From: a virus
Direction: 5' to 3' (one strand)
DNA length: 32,254 nucleotides
Virus record (IMG/VR): IMGVR_UViG_3300020125_000398
Coordinates: 1-32,254 of that record
Both the position numbers and the translations under genes were made by a program. Position 1 is the first letter of the stretch. Each line of letters starts with the position of its first letter. The notes beneath the pieces were generated by a model. The model saw nothing but the letters and a program-made list of their open reading frames with translations. It made no database searches and was not told the DNA's origin. This document shows, piece by piece, positions 1 through 11,033 of the stretch.

Positions 1-196
1 CACAATCGATAATTTCGTTCGAACCTTTCATCGAGCCAGAGATTCGTGCGTAACTTGTCCCACGCCAAACTTCGATGATAAGTTTCTGGCTCCAGAAATC
101 ATGCTTATACCGAAATGGCATGAAACCTAGAGGTCTCTTCGGGATTAATTCGGCTTCTGGTTCTAGATGAACTAACCTACTAGGTGCTCTAATCAT
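1..196 (-). CDS. Unknown protein, 3' part cut by window edge
   Basis: An open frame starts at an ATG at 196 and runs through position 1 without a stop, so the C-terminus lies outside the window. The visible 65 residues begin MIRAPSRLVHLEPEAELIP and are mixed charged and aromatic, with no membrane segment. The ATG overlaps the polymerase stop in an ATGA arrangement, and GGAG sits eight bases upstream, inside the polymerase coding end. This indicates translational coupling in the replication operon. I do not recognise the family. Its position directly after the replicative polymerase suggests a DNA metabolism role, but that is only an inference from context. Confidence 0.7.
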   Translation of the reverse strand, partial: MIRAPSRLVHLEPEAELIPKRPLGFMPFRYKHDFWSQKLIIEVWRGTSYARISGSMKGSNEIIDC

Positions 197-3100
197 TTTA
201 CAAACTCCTCAAAGGGGCCAAATGCTTCAATAGCCTTGATAGCATCAGCCTTTAGCTTGTCGAAATATGACATGTCAATTTTTAGATCCGGCATGGCTTG
301 GGCAATCTCTGCCTCAACCCACTTGTACCCCTTGGTTCCTGTTACCGCGTAGTACTTGTCGTCCTTGACCCGGTAGAGCGTTCCGCCCCCTTCAACAACA
401 GGTACAAAGCGACCAGTACGCCCAAGATGGCGCATATTGCGATAAACAAGGGTTTCATCTTTTTCGTGATCCTCCTTATCGAGATACATAGTTCCCTGAA
501 CAACAGAACGACCTTCGCATAGATCATCAAAAGTCGGTTCTTCACCTGAGAACAATGTCTTGAATACGTATGGATGTTGGAATTGTGACCCTACGGCGGT
601 CCACTCGTTTCCCTTTCTCGCTATGTAAACCGCGTCATTGACCAGACAGAACTTGTCGTAAGTCTCTTCATGCTCAAATTCATACCCGTACATTGAGCCA
701 ATAGTCGTCACAAATTCAACTGCATCTTGAGAAGCATTAGGGATCTTCACTGAATCGGTCTTGATGTGAACCACGTTGTAGTTGTTCTTTGTCAAGTCGT
801 TCTTCAGATCGATCATGAATAGGGCGCCACGTTTGGCGACGATGTTATCCACGTTTCGAATATCACGGAACGGATTGTCAAACTTGGCCGACGTCAGGCC
901 ATAGACGATGTTCAACGCGATTCGAAGGGCGAACGCCAACTGGCTGCCATGATTATCTACCTTATGATCTTCGGCACCCTCAAGGAAAGGTGCAAGTCTT
1001 CCGTCAAATAGTGTGCGAGCTCTCTCGTATTCCTGGCGCTTGATCGCTATCCGGGCTTTCGTGAGCTCAGCGTATTTCTCCGTGTACTTCCCGAAGAGAT
1101 TAAGTTTGATGATGCTGACGGGATGCATGGAGGCCACATCCAGGACGGCTACGTTCTCGTAGATTCCTGGCACTGCGTAGATGTAACCACCTTCTCCTGG
1201 ATCCTCTCCCTTGTAGCTGCTCTTCCCTGCTTCGAACTTGTACCCAGGGAATTCCTCGGACAGATCCGTATAGACAAAATAACGTTGTGGGTTTTTGTCG
1301 TCCCCAAATATGATCTTAGCTGTGTGTCTTTGTGTTGTATCATTAACCGTCAATCCACTCAGTTCGGCCAAGATCTGACGTGCGACAAAGTCGTCCCAGC
1401 GATCCTCGAGTACTGCCTCAGTAGCAATGACATCGTTGACGCAGTATTCGACGACCCTTGGCCAGTCTTTTTCATCTACAGGGTCATCCCAGGGAATGTC
1501 TAATTCCATATGGTGGACCCCCAGATCGATCTCGAATTTCTTTAATCCTTGCTTGATCGTGCTGAAATCCCAAATATCGGCATACGAGATGTTGTACGCT
1601 GCTCCGAACGGGGCGTTACGGTTATTGTCAACTATCATCTTCTGGCTGAGATTGAACAGTTGCTCGTTCGTATAGCCCATAGATGCCGCATAGAGAATAT
1701 GATTGTCGTATCTACGATTGTAGAATCCGACCAGTTTCAGCTTGAACAGCATCTCAACTTCGTGAGGCTTGGGATTGATCATCCTTACAACCTCATTACC
1801 CCCACGAAACTTCCAACAGATGACGAAGAGATTCTTGTAGACCTCTACGTCAAATATGGCCATGCGGTCATCGTCCACTTCGACGACGGCGTCAGACCCT
1901 ATCTCTGGATCTGACTGGAACTTCATGGTCTGTACTACCTTGAGTGCAATACCGGCCTGATGGGTCGAGTTGTTAGCAAAAGCCAAAACCCTAGGCCGTA
2001 GATCAATAACATCGTATTTCATCCCTGATTCATAAGCGTCGTCTAGAATCTTGGCGATGAAGTCGACGGATGGCTTCGTGCCTGGATGAATCTTCTTCTG
2101 GAGATTCCGCTCTATAAGCTCTCTCAGGCCCTTTTCACTTGTAATAGTCTTGGCCTTAAGCATCTTCTCCTTCTTCTGTTTGAGCGGCAATCCACTACTT
2201 ATCGACGCGATGGGCACTGCGTTGCATCGGGATAACCTTCTACGCAACGCCGAATCCCCAGCAAATATCTTAATCTCAATGCCATCTGAATACGTAGTCG
2301 ATAGAACAGAGGAGTCACCGGCATAATCATAATGTAAATGAACGCCCTTCCCTGACTGACTAAGTTCGGCATAAGTGGCAGGCCAGGTACTGGCTGCCTC
2401 CAGATTTCTCTCCAGAGCCTTACGTCCATCTTGGTCCCTCAGATCGAAGTCAATGACGATGTGGTTTTCAGGTACCTTTACAAAATGTAATCGCTGCGAA
2501 TCAATGTCTAAAAGCTTGGTCTTGACTGTTGACCATTTCTTAGTCGGCAATCCATCTTCAGTCGCCATCTGCGCAGGTTGATTGGCAAATTCCTCATCAA
2601 ATAGTGACTCGGTCTCTTCCATGACCAACGAGAAGGCAACTTGATCACCTGCTGTCTTAGGTGCCTTGAACTGTTCTGCGTTGAAACCGGAATATAGACT
2701 GCGAACTCGTTCACCGTTTATCTCACCCCGATCCTTGAATTCATCGAAGTAGTTTCGGAGCTCCTCTCGCATCTTGTACTGCGGTAGCGGCCGTTCTATT
2801 CCACTGTCTTCACAGAACTGCTTGTACAAGGTATACGCCTGAGTCAGGGTTATAGCATTTTGAGATTTGAACAGATCGTAATGTGCCTCAATGAAGTTGT
2901 AGAAGACGTCTGTCTGAAGCATCATCTCCAGTGGGCGATAATTGTTGTAGTAGTTCTTGCCCATTTCCAAATATACCTTCTGGCAATGAGCAGCTATTGC
3001 GCCAAGCTCGAAGTCGATCTGGCTTACTAGTGTGTTGTAATGTCTGACAGGAATTCTCACCCCAGTAGGGTGAACGTCTATCAACCGGCGAATAATCCCA

Positions 3101-3957
3101 GACTTAGCATCAGAAATTTTCACCGGCTGATTTGAACCGATGAACAACATAGCATCTGCTCTAGACGTGTAACTCGGCTTGTACTTCTCATTCATCGTCA
3201 TCTGCTCATGCGAGATGATTGAATTCAGCCGAGTGTTATCTTCTAACCTTGAAAGATCACCATCATGCTGGATGGCTACTAACGGATTGCTTTTGAAAGC
3301 CTCCGTAGCAAACGTGCCGTTACTGCTACCAAGAGCCTTACCATCAAACGTGGTAGTATATCCACTAAACAATCTCTCAAGAATATTGAGAATGGTGGAC
3401 TTTCCCGAACCGGCTGGCCCATAAAAGACGAAGAACTTTTGGATCTTCTTTGAATCTCCTGCGACAATGGATCCGATTGCCCACTCAATTTTTGCTCTCT
3501 CTTCAATAGAATATAATGTACCGACTAATTCATCCCAAGCGGAAATATCACCTTCTTCCAAAGCATAGTCAAGCTTACGACTTACGTAGTCTGACTTCTT
3601 CACTTCGTAATTAGCGAAGGCAATCTTGGAATCCAACGGATGGTTGTTGTCACTGATGTTGGACAGGTACTTCCTGAACTGCGCCCAAATATGACTGTTG
3701 TATGAGCGTAGAGATTTAACTTGATACCTGGTCCCGGTTTCAGAATACAGCCTATTCGCTTCACGTTGGAGATCTTCGTCAACTAGCCGCTGAACATCAT
3801 ACTCATCTCGAGACCAAAGACCGAGCTCTTCATCCCAGATGGCATAGAAGGTTCTACCCTGAACCATCAGATCCTGAGAACGACCGACAATGAAGTCAGG
3901 ATACAACTCCAAGGTCTTGTCTTTCGTTTCTCTGGTTAGGATCTGGTAGAAATCCAC
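193..3957 (-). CDS. Replicative fusion: SF3 helicase, primase-like, family B DNA polymerase
   Basis: This 1254-residue protein carries most of a replisome in one chain. An SF3/D5-like helicase lies at about residues 140-300: Walker A GPAGSGKS at 180-187, an acidic QHDGD at 230-234 and LFIGSNQP at 271-278. An archaeo-eukaryotic primase-like segment lies at about 495-590: DFD at 503-505, SGKGVHLH at 535-542, GIEIK at 559-563. A 3'-5' exonuclease follows at about 700-850: DVE at 703-705, YCVND at 838-842. Family B polymerase motifs come next: A, DVASMHP at 940-946; B, LNIVYG near 1015-1020; C, KTDS at 1066-1069. The start is a GTG with AAGGAG just upstream. Helicase and polymerase calls are firm. 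The primase call rests on three short motifs and is moderate. Confidence 0.93.
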   Translation of the reverse strand: MDFYQILTRETKDKTLELYPDFIVGRSQDLMVQGRTFYAIWDEELGLWSRDEYDVQRLVDEDLQREANRLYSETGTRYQVKSLRSYNSHIWAQFRKYLSNISDNNHPLDSKIAFANYEVKKSDYVSRKLDYALEEGDISAWDELVGTLYSIEERAKIEWAIGSIVAGDSKKIQKFFVFYGPAGSGKSTILNILERLFSGYTTTFDGKALGSSNGTFATEAFKSNPLVAIQHDGDLSRLEDNTRLNSIISHEQMTMNEKYKPSYTSRADAMLFIGSNQPVKISDAKSGIIRRLIDVHPTGVRIPVRHYNTLVSQIDFELGAIAAHCQKVYLEMGKNYYNNYRPLEMMLQTDVFYNFIEAHYDLFKSQNAITLTQAYTLYKQFCEDSGIERPLPQYKMREELRNYFDEFKDRGEINGERVRSLYSGFNAEQFKAPKTAGDQVAFSLVMEETESLFDEEFANQPAQMATEDGLPTKKWSTVKTKLLDIDSQRLHFVKVPENHIVIDFDLRDQDGRKALERNLEAASTWPATYAELSQSGKGVHLHYDYAGDSSVLSTTYSDGIEIKIFAGDSALRRRLSRCNAVPIASISSGLPLKQKKEKMLKAKTITSEKGLRELIERNLQKKIHPGTKPSVDFIAKILDDAYESGMKYDVIDLRPRVLAFANNSTHQAGIALKVVQTMKFQSDPEIGSDAVVEVDDDRMAIFDVEVYKNLFVICWKFRGGNEVVRMINPKPHEVEMLFKLKLVGFYNRRYDNHILYAASMGYTNEQLFNLSQKMIVDNNRNAPFGAAYNISYADIWDFSTIKQGLKKFEIDLGVHHMELDIPWDDPVDEKDWPRVVEYCVNDVIATEAVLEDRWDDFVARQILAELSGLTVNDTTQRHTAKIIFGDDKNPQRYFVYTDLSEEFPGYKFEAGKSSYKGEDPGEGGYIYAVPGIYENVAVLDVASMHPVSIIKLNLFGKYTEKYAELTKARIAIKRQEYERARTLFDGRLAPFLEGAEDHKVDNHGSQLAFALRIALNIVYGLTSAKFDNPFRDIRNVDNIVAKRGALFMIDLKNDLTKNNYNVVHIKTDSVKIPNASQDAVEFVTTIGSMYGYEFEHEETYDKFCLVNDAVYIARKGNEWTAVGSQFQHPYVFKTLFSGEEPTFDDLCEGRSVVQGTMYLDKEDHEKDETLVYRNMRHLGRTGRFVPVVEGGGTLYRVKDDKYYAVTGTKGYKWVEAEIAQAMPDLKIDMSYFDKLKADAIKAIEAFGPFEEFVK

Positions 3958-7052: not shown

Positions 7053-7325
7053 CTAACGGTCTGACTTGTATTCTAGTTTTTCGGGCTTCTTGCTGAACTT
7101 CTCTGAAAGCCAGTCGGCTGCCTTCGCAACTGCAACATCGGTGTACGGCTTAGTCTTGTAAGCTACAAGCTGACCAGCAACAGTGGCTCCAACCTTGACG
7201 GGAATACCATCGGGGTCGAGATTCGTGTGCTGTGCAACTTGAGTCTCACAAACCTGAGCTGTCTTCAATGCTACAATCATGCTGGCGGCATACTGTGCAA
7301 TTTCGAGCTTAGTCATGGGAAACAT
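7053..7325 (-). CDS. Small protein, 90 residues, own promoter and terminator
   Basis: It starts at ATG 7325 (MFPMTKLEIAQYAASMI), preceded by TAGGAG seven bases upstream. A longer frame to 7379 would run through the promoter-like element at 7355-7383 and is not likely to be real. The protein is an N-terminal helix, a short loop with NLDPDGIPVK, a small hydrophobic stretch and a lysine-rich tail. There is no clear membrane helix. The gene sits alone between a promoter-like element and a strong terminator, so it looks like a monocistronic cassette. Function unknown. Confidence 0.8.
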   Translation of the reverse strand: MFPMTKLEIAQYAASMIVALKTAQVCETQVAQHTNLDPDGIPVKVGATVAGQLVAYKTKPYTDVAVAKAADWLSEKFSKKPEKLEYKSDR

Positions 7326-7354: not shown

Positions 7355-7383
7355 TCTCATATATAGGCATGTTTTCCACGCGA
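7355..7383 (-). promoter_or_regulatory. Promoter-like element 1 (TCGCGT-N14-TATATGAGA)
   Basis: On the minus strand the element reads TCGCGT, 14 bases, TATATGAGA. It touches the stop of the gene at 7385-7888 and lies 30 bases upstream of the ATG at 7325. It is one of six copies with identical 14-base spacing. A -35/-10-like role is inferred; a protein-binding site is the alternative. Confidence 0.7.
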
Positions 7384-7384
7384 A

Positions 7385-7888
7385 TTAGTCGTTTGTAATT
7401 ACGATCTCACCTGAGACAATCTTCTCGCTGAGCTGTTTGTACTCATCATCTGACAACTCACGAACTTCTCTCATGGTCATGGTCTTGGGTACGGGCTTGA
7501 TTTGAGTTATTACAGCTTCCTGTGGAACCAAATCGCCCGGAATGATGCCGTTCATGAACTCAATGGCAGCATCCGTATCCGTCACCAGTTCCATGAACAG
7601 AGTGGAATATGCCTCAGACGACTCGAACTCATCTCGCAGAGTCTGATTCTTGATGAATCGCTTACCATCCAGAGACTTCTTGCCGTAAGACTGCAAGATG
7701 ATCTTCTTGAATTCCTCAATGATGGTCTTGTTGTCTTCAGCTTCGACAACTTTCTGCATCGATGCAACGAAGCCGCCCTCATGACTCATCTCCAACTCGA
7801 CCAATTCCGCCTTGGACAGATGGAAGAGGAAATCTTCGCTAGTTTCCTCCCCATTGAAGTCGGTGTATTTGATCGTCTTCTTGAGCAC
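7385..7888 (-). CDS. Conserved phage protein, 167 residues, function uncertain
   Basis: It begins with GTG (LKKTIKYTDFNGEETSEDF) after AAAGGATATTT. The pattern of an N-terminal beta segment (YTDFNGEE...FLFHLSKAEL), a helical middle (IIEEFKKIILQSYGKKSLDGKRF) and a C-terminal acidic tail (ELSDDEYKQLSEKI) is one I have seen in phages of Firmicutes and Actinobacteria. Such proteins are sometimes labelled tail-assembly-chaperone-like, but a separate chaperone candidate lies at 21877-22419. I therefore leave the function open. It is soluble. It follows the DUF6353-like gene by 11 bases and is the last gene of that operon before promoter-like element 1. Confidence 0.85.
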   Translation of the reverse strand: MLKKTIKYTDFNGEETSEDFLFHLSKAELVELEMSHEGGFVASMQKVVEAEDNKTIIEEFKKIILQSYGKKSLDGKRFIKNQTLRDEFESSEAYSTLFMELVTDTDAAIEFMNGIIPGDLVPQEAVITQIKPVPKTMTMREVRELSDDEYKQLSEKIVSGEIVITND

Positions 7889-7899
7889 AAATATCCTTT

Positions 7900-8697
7900 C
7901 TAGTACAGCTTTGTGTATTCAGGCATAGGTGGACGTGCAAACTCAATCGCAATACACGGACGATTGTCTGGAGACATGACAGTTGAGAATCGCACTTCGA
8001 ACCGATCTGTCAATCCATTCCAGCCAACTTCATCGGAGTACTGAGTTGGCAGAATATCGATCAGATCGTAGAACCTGCTCAGGCTTGCGTACATATGGTT
8101 CAAGATCTCGTAGTTGATCTTGTTCTCAGCTTGTCTGATCTTCTCCACTGTGCTCTGGAAATACCTGCCCGTATACATGTCGAAGCACAGAACGTCCCCA
8201 GCTCCGATGACGAGGACTTCTTTGCTCACTGGAGTATTCGCAACTTTCTCCTGAGCGATCTCGTCCCTGATCGCCATTTCCTTGTTCTCGCCGATCTTCT
8301 CGAGTACCTTCGCCCTGTATTCGGACAGAGTACGCTCAGATATACTCGAGGCAACCGCCAGAGCTGCGATCTTCTTCGAAGCCGTGTGATTAGCCATGAC
8401 AATCGCAGTAATCGTTGTGGCACCGACACTGACAGGTGCGACATACAGCGGCCAGACTAGTCTGAACTTGTCCATGTTGGTCATCATGGGAAGAGACTCA
8501 TCATCGATGAGTTTCACATTGTCACGCGCAGCCTGCATACGGATCTTGGTCTCTTCACGATCAATGATCTGTGCTGCCTTGTACGATGCACGACCGGCAA
8601 AATATGCAGTCGTGACAACACCAGTAATACCCATACCCGTCAGAACTGTTGTCGGGTTGGCTCCCAGCACCTTCTCTTTAAAGAGTTCGAGAAGCAT
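7900..8697 (-). CDS. DUF6353-like membrane protein (copy 1)
   Basis: The protein has 265 residues from ATG 8697 (MLLELFKEKVLGANPTTVL), with AAAGGCGG upstream. A TTG 18 bases earlier is possible. Two hydrophobic segments lie near residues 15-34 (VLTGMGITGVVTTAYFAG) and 84-103 (PLYVAPVSVGATTITAIVMA). Between them is a charged helical loop, and a C-terminal soluble domain follows. The same architecture is seen at 5269-6180, so these are likely diverged paralogues of the DUF6353 type. The first 20 bases overlap the upstream gene's end, so it is co-translated. No catalytic residues were recognised. Confidence 0.87.
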   Translation of the reverse strand: MLLELFKEKVLGANPTTVLTGMGITGVVTTAYFAGRASYKAAQIIDREETKIRMQAARDNVKLIDDESLPMMTNMDKFRLVWPLYVAPVSVGATTITAIVMANHTASKKIAALAVASSISERTLSEYRAKVLEKIGENKEMAIRDEIAQEKVANTPVSKEVLVIGAGDVLCFDMYTGRYFQSTVEKIRQAENKINYEILNHMYASLSRFYDLIDILPTQYSDEVGWNGLTDRFEVRFSTVMSPDNRPCIAIEFARPPMPEYTKLY

Positions 8698-8914
8698 TGC
8701 GTAGCCGCCTTTCAATATTTTCTAGAGCTTGTTTATCAGTATTTGCTACAGATATAGCTTCGACTACTTCAGCGTTTGGAAACGTAACACGAACAAAACG
8801 GAGGAACGCTTTAGTCCTATCCCGATGAAGACGTTCGGAAAGTCTTTGGCCGATGAGCCCTCCCACGCCCGAGCCCACTGCAACCAATACATAAAATAAA
8901 ATGCTGTCATGCAT
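8678..8914 (-). CDS. Small membrane protein, 78 residues
   Basis: It starts at ATG 8914, which shares its A with the TAA of the 50-residue gene (TAATG overlap). The protein has one N-terminal membrane segment with a glycine-zipper pattern (LFYVLVAVGSGVGGLIG, about residues 5-22). A strongly basic helix follows (QRLSERLHRDRTKAFLRFVR), then a soluble helical tail ending in RRLRNASRTL. It probably sits N-out or as a hairpin in the inner membrane with a basic cytoplasmic tail. No family recognised. The tight coupling to both neighbours supports coexpression with the DUF6353-like gene. Confidence 0.8.
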   Translation of the reverse strand: MHDSILFYVLVAVGSGVGGLIGQRLSERLHRDRTKAFLRFVRVTFPNAEVVEAISVANTDKQALENIERRLRNASRTL

Positions 8915-9066
8915 TATCGCCTGCGCATCTCCCTCACAAAGATCCAGATGAGCCAAAGCCCTCCGGTTAGGAAGACCATTGCCACATCCCCAACGAACTT
9001 CCAGAAACCATAACGACGACGATAATCATGCATAGTGTAAATATACCTTTCGTATTCGTGCTTCAT
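8914..9066 (-). CDS. Tiny membrane protein, 50 residues
   Basis: This frame is read from ATG 9066 to TAA 8914 and begins MKHEYERYIYTMHDYRRR. One membrane helix (about residues 22-43, FWKFVGDVAMVFLTGGLWLIW) is flanked by arginine-rich ends, giving a positive-inside topology that is ambiguous. Reality is supported by AAAGG upstream and the TAATG overlap with the next gene. The AAAGG lies in a short AACC-GAAA-GGTT hairpin, so initiation could be controlled by folding. It is the first gene after the twin-hairpin RNA and its terminator, so its expression needs readthrough. Function unknown. Confidence 0.75.
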   Translation of the reverse strand: MKHEYERYIYTMHDYRRRYGFWKFVGDVAMVFLTGGLWLIWIFVREMRRR

Positions 9067-9087
9067 TAATTAACCTTTCGGTTTAGG

Positions 9088-9107
9088 AAAAAAAGAGAAA
9101 GATCTTC
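9088..9107 (-). terminator. U-tract terminator of the twin-hairpin RNA
   Basis: The 3' arm GAAGATCT of the closing stem (9107-9100) is followed on the minus strand by TTCTCTTTTTTTCC. The 5' arm is AGATCTTC at 9169-9162, so the terminator stem is the closing helix of a branched RNA rather than a simple hairpin. Confidence 0.65.
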
Positions 9108-9170
9108 CATCAGATCCCCTGCAATAGGGGGTCGGATGTGATTCCCTGCAATAGGGTATCTGAAGATCTA
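9088..9170 (-). ncRNA. Candidate small RNA with twin AUUGC hairpins
   Basis: Immediately after promoter-like element 2, the minus strand reads AGATCTTC (9169-9162) and, 54 bases later, its perfect complement GAAGATCT (9107-9100). An inner CAGAT/ATCTG pair continues this stem with a small bulge. Inside are two near-identical hairpins: CCCT-ATTGC-AGGG at 9156-9144 and CCCCT-ATTGC-AGGGG at 9130-9116. TTCTCTTTTTTTCC follows the closing stem. The predicted transcript is about 80 nt, starting and ending at the closing stem. It could be a free small RNA or an attenuating leader for the genes at 9066-7385. No known RNA family was recognised. Confidence 0.6.
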
Positions 9171-9199
9171 TCTCATATAGGGCGATGTTTTCTGCGCGA
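9171..9199 (-). promoter_or_regulatory. Promoter-like element 2
   Basis: The minus strand reads TCGCGC, 14 bases, TATATGAGA, one base off the consensus in the first block. It directly abuts the TGA of the NUMOD-like gene (9200). It stands immediately upstream of the twin-hairpin RNA, whose closing stem begins about where a start site would be expected. Confidence 0.7.
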
Positions 9200-9694
9200 T
9201 CAAGCTGCCATGCAGATTCGCTCGAAGTGATTACCTGAAACATGATCCCGAACGCCATTCAAATGTTCGGACAAATGAGATGCTGACAATCCCATTTGAT
9301 TTGCAGCAGACTTCTGAGAGGCAAACACATCTCCGGTCTCTATACAACGAACGACCCAACTTGGTGGGCCTTGCCTATCAGAAGAAAAATAAGAGACGCT
9401 GTTCAGAACATTGCTCTTTCCAGATACAATATTCTGACTCACATTCCTCTCTCCCAGCACGCCAATGGCACCCTGGGCAGGCACGCCAGTGGCATCCCTG
9501 ATAGATTGTGAGGCAACGCCTCTCATATAGAGGTATGTAAATGACGCGAACAAAATTCCAGCGCCACCAGTAATGTAAACTGCCTTGTACTTCTCGAAGT
9601 GGCTCTTGATCTCATCCGTCATATCCACTTCTTCCTGATGTCCTGCTTCATCATCTTTGACCATCTTCACAAGGAATGATCGGCCCTTCAACAT
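9200..9694 (-). CDS. Membrane protein with C-terminal NUMOD1-like domain
   Basis: The protein has 164 residues from ATG 9694 (MLKGRSFLVKMVK); GAAAGGAGC lies upstream, so the longer TTG start is not needed. An acidic N-terminal region leads to one membrane segment at about 39-57 (VYITGGAGILFASFTYLYM). The C-terminal 50 residues (CIETGDVFASQKSAANQMGLSASHLSEHLNG) match the pattern of NUMOD1-type helix-turn-helix units, which bind DNA and usually accompany homing endonucleases. No GIY-YIG or HNH catalytic part is present. Promoter-like element 3 lies inside the membrane-coding codons. The family call is from pattern only, so moderate. It may be a remnant of a mobile endonuclease joined to a membrane gene. 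Confidence 0.75.
   Translation of the reverse strand: MLKGRSFLVKMVKDDEAGHQEEVDMTDEIKSHFEKYKAVYITGGAGILFASFTYLYMRGVASQSIRDATGVPAQGAIGVLGERNVSQNIVSGKSNVLNSVSYFSSDRQGPPSWVVRCIETGDVFASQKSAANQMGLSASHLSEHLNGVRDHVSGNHFERICMAA
9521..9549 (-). promoter_or_regulatory. Promoter-like element 3, inside a coding region
   Basis: The minus strand reads TCGCGT, 14 bases (with the invariant C at position 7), TATATGAGA. It encodes part of the membrane segment of the gene at 9200-9694. It could drive a shorter product with only the NUMOD1-like part, for example from a GTG near residue 85 that follows GAGAGG. Confidence 0.55.
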
Positions 9695-9717
9695 AATGGC
9701 TCCTTTCAAGAGCATAG

Positions 9718-9761
9718 GAAAAAAACAAAAAAAAGAGGGTAATAACGCATCGAACGTTATT
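9718..9761 (-). terminator. Intrinsic terminator after the 160-nt RNA
   Basis: The minus strand has AATAACG, loop TTCGATG, CGTTATT (9761-9741). ACCCTCTTTTTTTT and another T-run follow. It ends 24 bases before the ATG at 9694, so the next gene depends on readthrough or on antitermination. Confidence 0.8.
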
Positions 9762-9886
9762 CGTTAACTACCAAAACTGTAGCGGGTAGCACCTGTGGGT
9801 CGGAGTTTCACCAATTTTCATCTCCCTTCGACCCTTGCGGGCGGGGAGGACGCTTTCGTGTCTCACAATGCAATTAATTATGCATC
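9718..9886 (-). ncRNA. Candidate 160-nt structured RNA
   Basis: Between promoter-like element 4 and the NUMOD-like gene lies about 170 bases without a convincing frame but with dense pairing on the minus strand. Visible elements, 5' to 3': ATGCA/TGCAT hairpin; GAC/GTC hairpin with a GAAA tetraloop; CCC-GCAA-GGG tetraloop hairpin; GGGTCG pairing with CGACCC around an inner GGAG/CTCC pair; CTACC/GGTAG stem; then the terminator. It may be a stand-alone small RNA or a riboswitch-like leader for the gene at 9694. The core has a loose resemblance to cobalamin riboswitches but lacks their B12 box, so I do not assign that class. Confidence 0.55.
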
Positions 9887-9888
9887 TC

Positions 9889-9917
9889 TTTCATATAGAT
9901 GCATGTTTCTGACGCGA
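9889..9917 (-). promoter_or_regulatory. Promoter-like element 4
   Basis: The minus strand reads TCGCGT, 14 bases, TATATGAAA; the second block differs at one base. It follows the terminator of the 71-residue gene without a gap. The 160-nt structured RNA starts a few bases downstream, so the element most likely drives that RNA. Confidence 0.65.
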
Positions 9918-9947
9918 AGAAAATAAGAGTCCATTTCTGGGCTCTTA
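9918..9947 (-). terminator. Intrinsic terminator after the 71-residue gene
   Basis: The minus strand has TAAGAG-C-CC, loop AGAAAT, GG-A-CTCTTA, then TTTTCTT. The core GAGCCCAGAAATGGACTCTT is the same as in the terminator at 7006-7047. It runs directly into promoter-like element 4. Confidence 0.85.
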
Positions 9948-9957
9948 CTTTTTAAGA

Positions 9958-10173
9958 CTACTGCTGTGCGGCGTTCTTAGCGGCTTCGAGCTGCAACTTC
10001 GCAGTCTCGAGGTTCATCGAGATGAGCTTCCAGCTGTAGTAGCAGGAGGCACCCGTGGCGGCGACTGGAATCGCGTAGATTCCAGCAACTGCCAGGTTGC
10101 GTCCGAGCTTCTTCAACTTTGAGGTCTTCTTGATGGGCTCCTCGACGACGGTGTTGTTGGTCTCGTTGCTCAT
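9958..10173 (-). CDS. Small membrane protein, 71 residues
   Basis: It begins MSNETNNTVVEEPIKK with AAGGAG eight bases upstream of the ATG. After a polar, lysine-rich N-terminus there is one membrane segment at about 27-49 (NLAVAGIYAIPVAATGASCYYSWKL). An alanine/leucine-rich amphipathic helix follows (LETAKLQLEAAKNAAQQ) and may self-associate. It is a single-gene unit: promoter-like element 5 is 26 bases upstream and an intrinsic terminator begins ten bases after the stop. No family recognised. Similar small single-helix proteins follow the lysis genes in many actinobacteriophages. Confidence 0.85.
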   Translation of the reverse strand: MSNETNNTVVEEPIKKTSKLKKLGRNLAVAGIYAIPVAATGASCYYSWKLISMNLETAKLQLEAAKNAAQQ

Positions 10174-10198
10174 AATTTAAACTCCTTAGTTAGTAGGG

Positions 10199-10227
10199 TC
10201 TCATATAGGGGTAAGTATTTTACGCGA
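10199..10227 (-). promoter_or_regulatory. Promoter-like element 5
   Basis: The minus strand reads TCGCGT, 14 bases, TATATGAGA. CCCTAC follows, also seen after element 6. The ribosome site AAGGAG of the gene at 9958-10173 lies about 10 bases further on, which leaves a very short leader. Confidence 0.75.
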
Positions 10228-10267
10228 CCTATTTTCAGAAATCTCCCCCCGGGGATTTTTTGGGATC

Positions 10268-10302
10268 GAAAAAAAAATATGAAAGGCCGCAGACGCGGCC
10301 CT
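10268..10302 (-). terminator. Intrinsic terminator after the 94-residue gene
   Basis: The minus strand has GGCCGC, loop GTCT, GCGGCC (10300-10285), then TTTCATATTTTTTTTT. It lies about 30 bases after the stop at 10332 and closes the unit started by promoter-like element 6. Confidence 0.88.
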
Positions 10303-10331
10303 CCATACTTAGACTTCCTTCTAAAGCTTTG

Positions 10332-10616
10332 TTACCTTGGCTTTGACACCAGCTGCATAGCTCTGGACGTGATGACGTTCACGTGCTCATGCCTGATAAT
10401 CAGCATTATTCCGACAATATTCGTAGCGGCCAGGAGTATGGTATCTGGATGCAGAGTAGAAGGTTTCTCTTCTTCCTTCATCTTCTGTAGCTTGATAGCG
10501 TACTCCAGCGCTTTCGGATATTCGTCCGAATCAATCTGCTGACTGGCCAGGTGGGTGAGCACACGTTCAGTCTCAGTCTCGAGCTGCGACTTGTGTCTCG
10601 TCTTCCTGGTAAACAT
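10332..10616 (-). CDS. Small membrane protein, 94 residues
   Basis: I chose ATG 10616 (MFTRKTRHKSQLE), with AAGGAG five bases upstream, over an upstream non-ATG start that would sit inside the promoter-like element. The first 55 residues are charged and helical. A membrane segment follows at about 58-75 (TILLAATNIVGIMLII), and the tail has RHEHVNVITSRAM. This tail pattern after a single helix is one I recall from small membrane proteins in phages of Actinobacteria, without an assigned role. It is a monocistronic unit after the holin, with its own promoter-like element and terminator. Confidence 0.85.
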   Translation of the reverse strand: MFTRKTRHKSQLETETERVLTHLASQQIDSDEYPKALEYAIKLQKMKEEEKPSTLHPDTILLAATNIVGIMLIIRHEHVNVITSRAMQLVSKPR

Positions 10617-10634
10617 AACGCTCCTTCGGTAGGG

Positions 10635-10663
10635 TCTCATATAAGGAGGAGCATTCTACGCGA
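10635..10663 (-). promoter_or_regulatory. Promoter-like element 6
   Basis: The minus strand reads TCGCGT, 14 bases, TATATGAGA. The first block overlaps the end of the holin gene (GTCGCGTAG). CCCTACCGAAGGAG follows at once, so the transcript would start almost at the ribosome site of the gene at 10332-10616. Confidence 0.72.
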
Positions 10664-11033
10664 CAGGGTCTTCTATAGGAGGTTTGTTATTGATCTGGAA
10701 TGTGGCCTCTTTTTTGTCTTTGAGGCCCTGTGGGTCGTCCTTGAGCGTCAGAGAATATAGAAGCTTCTCTGGTGTCTCTTGAACGTTTATCGCTCCGACA
10801 TATTTGGCACCACTGTCCTCGTATGACTTGCTACTTATGCCTAGAAGAGCTCCAAGAAAGGCTTGGGTAGCTATGAGCGTCCCCAGAACTTGCTGTGCTG
10901 CTGGTAGACCCCAGATCTGCGCGAGAGCGAAATATAACGTGCCAACTGCAGGTATGACTATCCCTACTACAAATTTGATTACATCATATAGATTATTCGA
11001 TAGAAGATGGGGTTCTGATTCAGGCCCAGCCAA
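10656..11033 (-). CDS. Holin, r1t-like type
   Basis: The protein has 125 residues. The start is a TTG at 11033, with a near-perfect GGAGGTGA upstream and no nearby ATG. Two membrane segments are visible: about 17-38 (VIKFVVGIVIPAVGTLYFALAQIWG) and about 45-66 (QQVLGTLIATQAFLGALLGI). The motif YFALAQIWGLP followed by GISSKSY is characteristic of r1t-type holins. A long polar C-terminal tail (about 55 residues) is extra. Holins permeabilise the inner membrane so that the endolysin can reach the wall. It closes the tail operon, while the endolysin is about 19 kb away at 30049-30906. Confidence 0.86.
   Translation of the reverse strand: MAGPESEPHLLSNNLYDVIKFVVGIVIPAVGTLYFALAQIWGLPAAQQVLGTLIATQAFLGALLGISSKSYEDSGAKYVGAINVQETPEKLLYSLTLKDDPQGLKDKKEATFQINNKPPIEDPVA

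Follow-up and report, generated by a model that had tools for sequence, protein, structure and literature searches.

A Repeated Promoter-Like Element in a Phage Small-Gene Block and Its Probable Pairing with a Single-Chain Phage RNA Polymerase

The Small-Gene Block and Its Six Elements

The window analysed here is a stretch of 32,254 nucleotides, positions 1 to 32,254 of the IMG/VR virus record IMGVR_UViG_3300020125_000398. It covers part of a tailed-phage genome, in which terminase, portal, capsid/protease, and tail genes are followed by a block of small genes and then by genes that end in a primase/DNA polymerase fusion. Its protein relatives are found in the Rhodococcus phages ReqiPepy6 and Poco6, in phages of Gordonia, Streptomyces, Arthrobacter, Curtobacterium, and Microbacterium, in oral siphoviruses, and in Lactococcus 1706-like phages; a megablast search of the element region against phages gave no match. 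The features discussed below are listed here.

193–3957, minus strand: primase/DNA polymerase fusion (phrog_4210), which served as lineage marker for reaching relatives
7053–7325, minus strand: small ORF behind copy 6, 90 aa, phrog_7539
7355–7383, minus strand: element copy 6, predicted +1 at 7358; precedes ORF 7053–7325 and sits after the stop of ORF 7385–7888
9085–9174, minus strand: structured RNA after copy 5, z −4.6; closed hairpin with a terminal U-run, outer stem from the predicted +1 G
9171–9199, minus strand: element copy 5, predicted +1 at 9174; precedes a structured RNA and adjoins the stop of ORF 9200–9694
9521–9549, minus strand: element copy 4, predicted +1 at 9524; within ORF 9200–9694 (FASFTYLYMRG)
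9730–9892, minus strand: structured RNA after copy 3, z −3.6; outer stem starts at the predicted +1 G
9889–9917, minus strand: element copy 3, predicted +1 at 9892; precedes a structured RNA
9924–9947, no strand assigned: terminator-like hairpin, nearly palindromic and immediately upstream of copy 3, detected on the opposite strand
9958–10173, minus strand: small ORF behind copy 2 (71 aa), probably encoding a membrane protein
10199–10227, minus strand: element copy 2, predicted +1 at 10202; precedes ORF 9958–10173
10275–10310, minus strand: terminator-like hairpin and T-run upstream of copy 2
10332–10616, minus strand: small ORF behind copy 1, 94 aa, phrog_5818
10635–10663, minus strand: element copy 1, predicted +1 at 10638; precedes ORF 10332–10616; weak ACA box (GCTC)

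The element has the form TCGCG[TC]-N14-TATATGA[GA]A in the window, and all six copies lie on the minus strand, which is the coding strand. The initial annotation had placed six copies at these coordinates with an exact spacer of 14 bases, and all of them were found again; dinucleotide-preserving shuffles of the window contained none (mean 0, largest 0), and the chance expectation is 0. The absence of a seventh copy was also borne out, because a search of the whole window with two mismatches permitted added nothing to the six, and a weight-matrix scan of the 32 kb returned exactly six matches on the minus strand and 0 on the plus strand. The C described as invariant at spacer position 7 is indeed so, and it is the middle base of a conserved ACA box.

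Five of the six copies had been described as lying between genes. This stands, except that the copy at 10635–10663 slightly overlaps a stop codon, that of the holin-like ORF 10656–11033. The counterpart of copy 4 in a related contig, L013, retains the core bases, with the encoded residues altered, and the proteins of the window and of L013 diverge directly past this copy. The small ORFs and the two structured RNAs support the earlier view that tiny genes and structured RNAs follow the elements. The RNA at 9730–9892 is 94–100% identical in four near relatives. An Rfam scan of the window found no family reaching the gathering threshold, a relaxed Rfam scan of 9060–9930 yielded a single match that was judged to be due to chance, and a tRNA scan of the window found no tRNA. 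A sequence very similar to the hairpin at 9924–9947, GGAGCCCAGAAATGGACTC, follows ORF 7053–7325.

Occurrence of the Element in Other Phages

The initial annotation had seen no further copy elsewhere in the window. Scans of relatives and of IMG/VR show that the element, far from being local to this phage, is common to a very large phage lineage, and that the form in the window is one variant of a promoter-like motif spread far outside it. An exact scan of IMG/VR retrieved near relatives with the same array, together with the distant contigs L010 (102 kb), L014 (95 kb), L011, and L016, whose arrays are of like design. The element occurs in phages of Rhodococcus, Gordonia, Streptomyces, Arthrobacter, and Microbacterium as well as in gut Firmicutes prophages, and its copies are nearly always confined to a single strand. 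With position 0 set at the first T of TCGC, the parts that are constant across these groups are TCGC (positions 0–3), ACA (positions 11–13), and ATG (positions 23–25), and the supposed −10 box varies.

Random occurrence of the pattern across the rest of the genome and in unrelated phages had been named as an objection to a dedicated element, and the pattern scan across relatives had been proposed as the check; arrays were recovered and the reversed controls were near zero. A weight matrix built from 41 sites, whose source loci are included among the 106 loci scanned, found three or more copies in 73 of the 106, always on a single strand, and in 0 of 106 reversed controls. A relaxed pattern was present in 29 of the 37 records scanned, and its reversed form, used as a control, gave 0. 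In a spacing control, the strict consensus with the correct spacer matches at least 120 stretches, and with a spacer one base longer it matches 1. Through the small-gene region of known phages, the element counts are 14 in the ReqiPepy6 stretch, 10 in Gravy, and 25 in Qui. An unbiased search of Lactococcus 1706 and P078 recovered the ACA and the TATA(A/G)T part; most of the TCGC box has disappeared there, which counts against the polymerase reading proposed below. Two controls, Enterococcus phage LY0322 and 35 kb of SPbeta, gave 0 matches.

Promoter Features and the Predicted Start Point

Several features of the genomic context suggest a role in transcription. Of the 56 element copies in four annotated genomes, 47 are entirely intergenic, the G of the ATG lies at a median of 25.5 nt from the next start codon, and 35 of the 56 have a T-run within 30 nt upstream, against a background of 3.6%. 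A copy precedes a tRNA in ReqiPepy6, and hairpin leaders follow elements about 0.8–1.0 kb upstream of the ORF of the polymerase described below, in genomes mostly of gut Firmicutes. Because copies thus precede untranslated RNAs (the tRNA, the structured RNAs of the window, and the hairpin leaders), the element points to transcription rather than to translation. Visual inspection also suggested tRNA-like sequences behind elements of L113, L114, L115, and L268; ARAGORN confirmed none of the four, and ReqiPepy6 is therefore the only tRNA case used. An oriented element that is repeated with fixed spacing upstream of transcription units is what would be expected of promoters for a phage's own polymerase. 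On these sequence patterns, the element very probably represents a widespread promoter class.

The initial annotation expected transcription to start 5–10 bases after TATATG. We would replace this with a start at the G of the ATG itself. Over 64 leaders, the paired fraction jumps from 0.12 at position 24 to 0.48 at position 25 and reaches 0.78 at position 29, and the commonest first paired base is position 25, the G of ATG. Since the RNA stems begin so sharply there, this G is the predicted +1, as in the TATG promoters of phiKZ and unlike sigma-70 promoters; a sigma-70 start several bases downstream would cut off part of the stem. The purine-rich composition weakens this stem-based argument. 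The outer stems of both window RNAs also start at this G, although the folding of these two was begun at that very base.

The best-surviving alternative, which we nevertheless consider unlikely, is that the AT-rich part serves as a −10 box for the host polymerase and its principal sigma factor, with assistance from a phage activator that binds TCGC and ACA in the manner of MotA at the middle promoters of T4. A perfect TATAAT is suitably placed in 60–67% of the sites in the actinophage and DNA-polymerase-relative sets and could be used by a host sigma, and fixed spacing is compatible with an activator that contacts the polymerase. However, the A expected at sigma-70 position −11 occurs in 0 of 10 distinct sites of the window set and at frequencies of 0.13 in L014, 0.31 in L010, and 0.32 in the Firmicutes set, although Firmicutes hosts should favour TATAAT. 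An extended −10 TG is present in at most 6%, and a host-type promoter scan of the window found no sigma-70-like pair, with a TTGACA-like −35 at 16–18 nt, at the elements, in line with the misfit to the host consensus TTGACA-N17-TATAAT already remarked upon. In addition, a single motif is common to phages of different host phyla, and the predicted start falls 1 nt after the box, which argues against a sigma-70 reading.

A Single-Chain RNA Polymerase as the Probable Reader

The protein that travels with the element belongs to the family phrog_4291. Its gene is absent from the window because the window is a fragment, and we place it past the fragment end; the closest relatives of the window do carry it. 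One contig that encodes it is L024; the DNA polymerases of L024 and of the window share 83% identity. Matches to the family at 1175–1337 bits include Lactococcus 1706 orf75, Streptomyces phage RosaAsantewaa gp54, oral contig89 gp106, and P078_0077. The first is labelled “structural protein”, a label from which that of ReqiPoco6 was derived by similarity, and the second “HTH protein”; many of the copies in the 250 sequenced phage records in which the family was found have been annotated as “helix-turn-helix protein”, “structural protein”, or “RNA-dependent RNA polymerase”. A search for the polymerase on plasmids did not find it.

The catalytic motif DxDGD is present as DFDGD in 24 of 24 sequences, and D512-F-D-G-D516 is invariant in 65. 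Helix-turn-helix signals occur at both ends of the RosaAsantewaa protein and at the C-terminal end of the L024 protein. In a Foldseek search, the predicted model of the L024 enzyme (mean pLDDT 82) had as its best PDB matches QDE-1 (E 5e-9), P74-26 gp62 (E 9e-7), and plant RDR2. The match is global yet loose (TM about 0.3), and the domain arrangement therefore differs from those of the three. The protein is thus predicted to have a single-chain two-barrel polymerase fold of the QDE-1 type. It is one chain of about 870–1030 aa, not the split beta/beta-prime-like subunits of the phiKZ type. Clear homology to the YonO family proper was not found, the two falling in separate PHROGs (phrog_8308 and phrog_4291, respectively) with a weak local match near the active site; an hhalign comparison of the family with a single YonO sequence found nothing, which carries little weight.

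Element and polymerase were found together from both directions. L010 and L014, retrieved by the motif only, encode the polymerase, and so does every one of the 32 viral contigs of 41 kb or more that were selected by the motif (28 of 28 in one test, together with L317, L351, L369, and L377); seven contigs with a single match do not. Conversely, 80 host-genome loci were retrieved via the polymerase, many of them from Lachnospiraceae and other gut Clostridia, and 78 of these hold at least one element match, with 165 sense matches against 1, 3, and 3 in the controls. An attempt to separate the polymerase from the phrog_4210 DNA polymerase failed, since 11 of 11 host genomes have both. Because polymerase, element, and DNA polymerase travel together, another conserved protein of the lineage could be the reader, and the RNA polymerase is the most plausible one by its nature rather than by exclusion.

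The idea of a dedicated phage polymerase factor is largely supported insofar as the reader does not appear to be of host origin, and a single-chain phage polymerase is likelier than the sigma factor or modified host polymerase first suggested. We infer that the element is probably read by this phage-encoded, single-chain, two-barrel DNA-dependent RNA polymerase (phrog_4291, distantly YonO/QDE-1-like). The helix-turn-helix parts of the enzyme itself would probably touch TCGC (about −25 to −22) and ACA (−14 to −12), and RNA synthesis would begin at the G of the ATG as +1. Promoters of this kind in arrays, many just past a terminator-like T-run, would then yield many short transcripts, whose products may be tiny, often membrane, proteins, tRNAs, and hairpin RNAs. 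We put forward more tentatively the broader proposal that phages and prophages of Actinobacteria and Firmicutes share an ancient sigma-independent code (TCGC/ACA/ATG, +1 at G), read directly by a virion-carried single-chain two-barrel polymerase with built-in DNA-reading domains that makes short early transcripts, as many as dozens from one genome.

It is improbable that the decisive protein is another conserved member of the lineage, either a sigma-like factor that redirects the host core enzyme or a required partner of the phage polymerase. Such a helper has a precedent in gp226 of the AR9 nvRNAP, and several shared core proteins have no assigned function; on the other side, no match to a sigma-like family was found among the core lineage proteins tested, and the polymerase has helix-turn-helix signals of its own. 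That the element is instead a place of recombination or cassette exchange, or is bound by a regulator or a replication protein, is very improbable: the protein divergence beginning right past copy 4 would suit such a site, but homology breaks at promoters can have other causes, and the strict orientation with transcription, the fixed distance to start codons, the upstream T-runs, and the copies before tRNA and hairpin RNAs all speak for a promoter.

Comparison with Known Phage Transcription Systems

YonO of Bacillus phage SPbeta resembles the predicted phrog_4291 polymerase in size and in being a two-barrel phage RNA polymerase made of one chain, and it makes phage transcripts; it is DNA-dependent, and its promoter sequence and need for a helper were left for later work (PMC5467207). 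Unlike the arrays considered here, it transcribes late genes as one operon (PMC5467207), and the 35 kb of SPbeta scanned contain no copy of the element. Also comparable are gp96 and gp64 of Thermus phage P23-45, which are single-chain two-barrel phage enzymes tied to their own repeated promoter motifs, and relatives without the tail-fused enzyme also lack its motif (PMC10770324). P74-26 gp62, the structural match named above, is homologous to gp64. Unlike the phrog_4291 enzyme, gp96 is fused to the tape measure protein, and the motifs are one AT-rich and one GC-rich, with no mention of a TCGC/ACA/ATG code in the passages covered (PMC10770324).

The late promoters of the phiKZ non-virion RNA polymerase also resemble the element in having a conserved T(−3)ATG(+1), a start at the G, and no host sigma, but they are served by a multisubunit enzyme and have no upstream boxes of the TCGC/ACA type (PMC4666361). 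The TATG resemblance is likely to be analogy, not descent. T7-like promoters are similar in another respect: one phage enzyme serves many strong, same-orientation promoters of fixed length, with a core extending to the start site. The T7 polymerase fold is unrelated to the two-barrel fold, and this analysis gave no match of the T7 polymerase type.

Small-gene arrays in the same region have been described in Arthrobacter AM/AU, Gordonia DJ, and Rhodococcus CC phages, where many small, often membrane-protein genes lie past the tail genes or in mid-genome; a term search of the accessible text of these reports found no promoter element or RNA polymerase for them (PMC5513430, PMC13313380). An exact-text literature search for TATATGAGA returned nothing relevant among the matches listed, and no prior account of the element or of its pairing with the phrog_4291 enzyme was found in the part of the literature searched, on which we claim no priority. 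The evidence that the phage polymerase rather than the host reads the element is strong, if indirect; the motif is a first candidate promoter sequence for this polymerase group and a concrete candidate answer, in a related and widespread family, to the promoter question left by the YonO paper (PMC5467207). If the pairing is true, it would allow transcription to be mapped, gene starts to be corrected, and small RNAs to be predicted in a large number of phages, may provide an orthogonal polymerase/promoter pair, and would offer a simple model of promoter reading by a minimal relative of the cellular RNA polymerases.

A hairpin leader upstream of the proposed polymerase

In most of the genome contigs collected through the phrog_4291 protein, the proposed single-chain, two-barrel phage RNA polymerase (loci L226-L305), the promoter-like TCGC/ACA/ATG element is conserved at a site that precedes the polymerase ORF by approximately 0.83-1.02 kb; there it is followed by a short hairpin and a U-run, ahead of the next gene. 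The contigs with this hairpin leader belong largely to gut Firmicutes. It is possible that the leader is an attenuator or a small RNA controlling the polymerase operon.

Elements and gene boundaries

The element lies downstream of the annotated start in both Rhodococcus phage ReqiPepy6 gp040 (L104:7032-7397) and phage Qui gp61 (L111:5575-5892); the true start of these genes is likelier to be the ATG behind the element than the annotated one. In ReqiPepy6, at L104:9321-9428, the first base of tRNA-Ala is located 33 nt past the start of an element. When copy 4 of the window (9521-9549) is compared with the relative L013 (at 3584), the two encode a common protein as far as the element, but immediately past it no similarity between the proteins is left, which places copy 4 at a homology breakpoint.

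Structured RNAs and membrane proteins of the window

Two structured RNAs are conserved among near relatives, and an Rfam scan assigned no family to either:

9730-9892, minus strand, structured RNA; 94-100% identity in the four near relatives holding it
9085-9174, minus strand, structured RNA; identical in three near relatives

Two membrane-type phrog_2152 paralogues are found within this one genome:

5269-6180, membrane-type protein, phrog_2152
7900-8715, membrane-type protein, phrog_2152 and Pfam DUF6353

The small membrane ORF at 9200-9694 carries at its C-terminal end a NUMOD-like stretch of the homing-endonuclease type, as suggested by a weak Pfam match.
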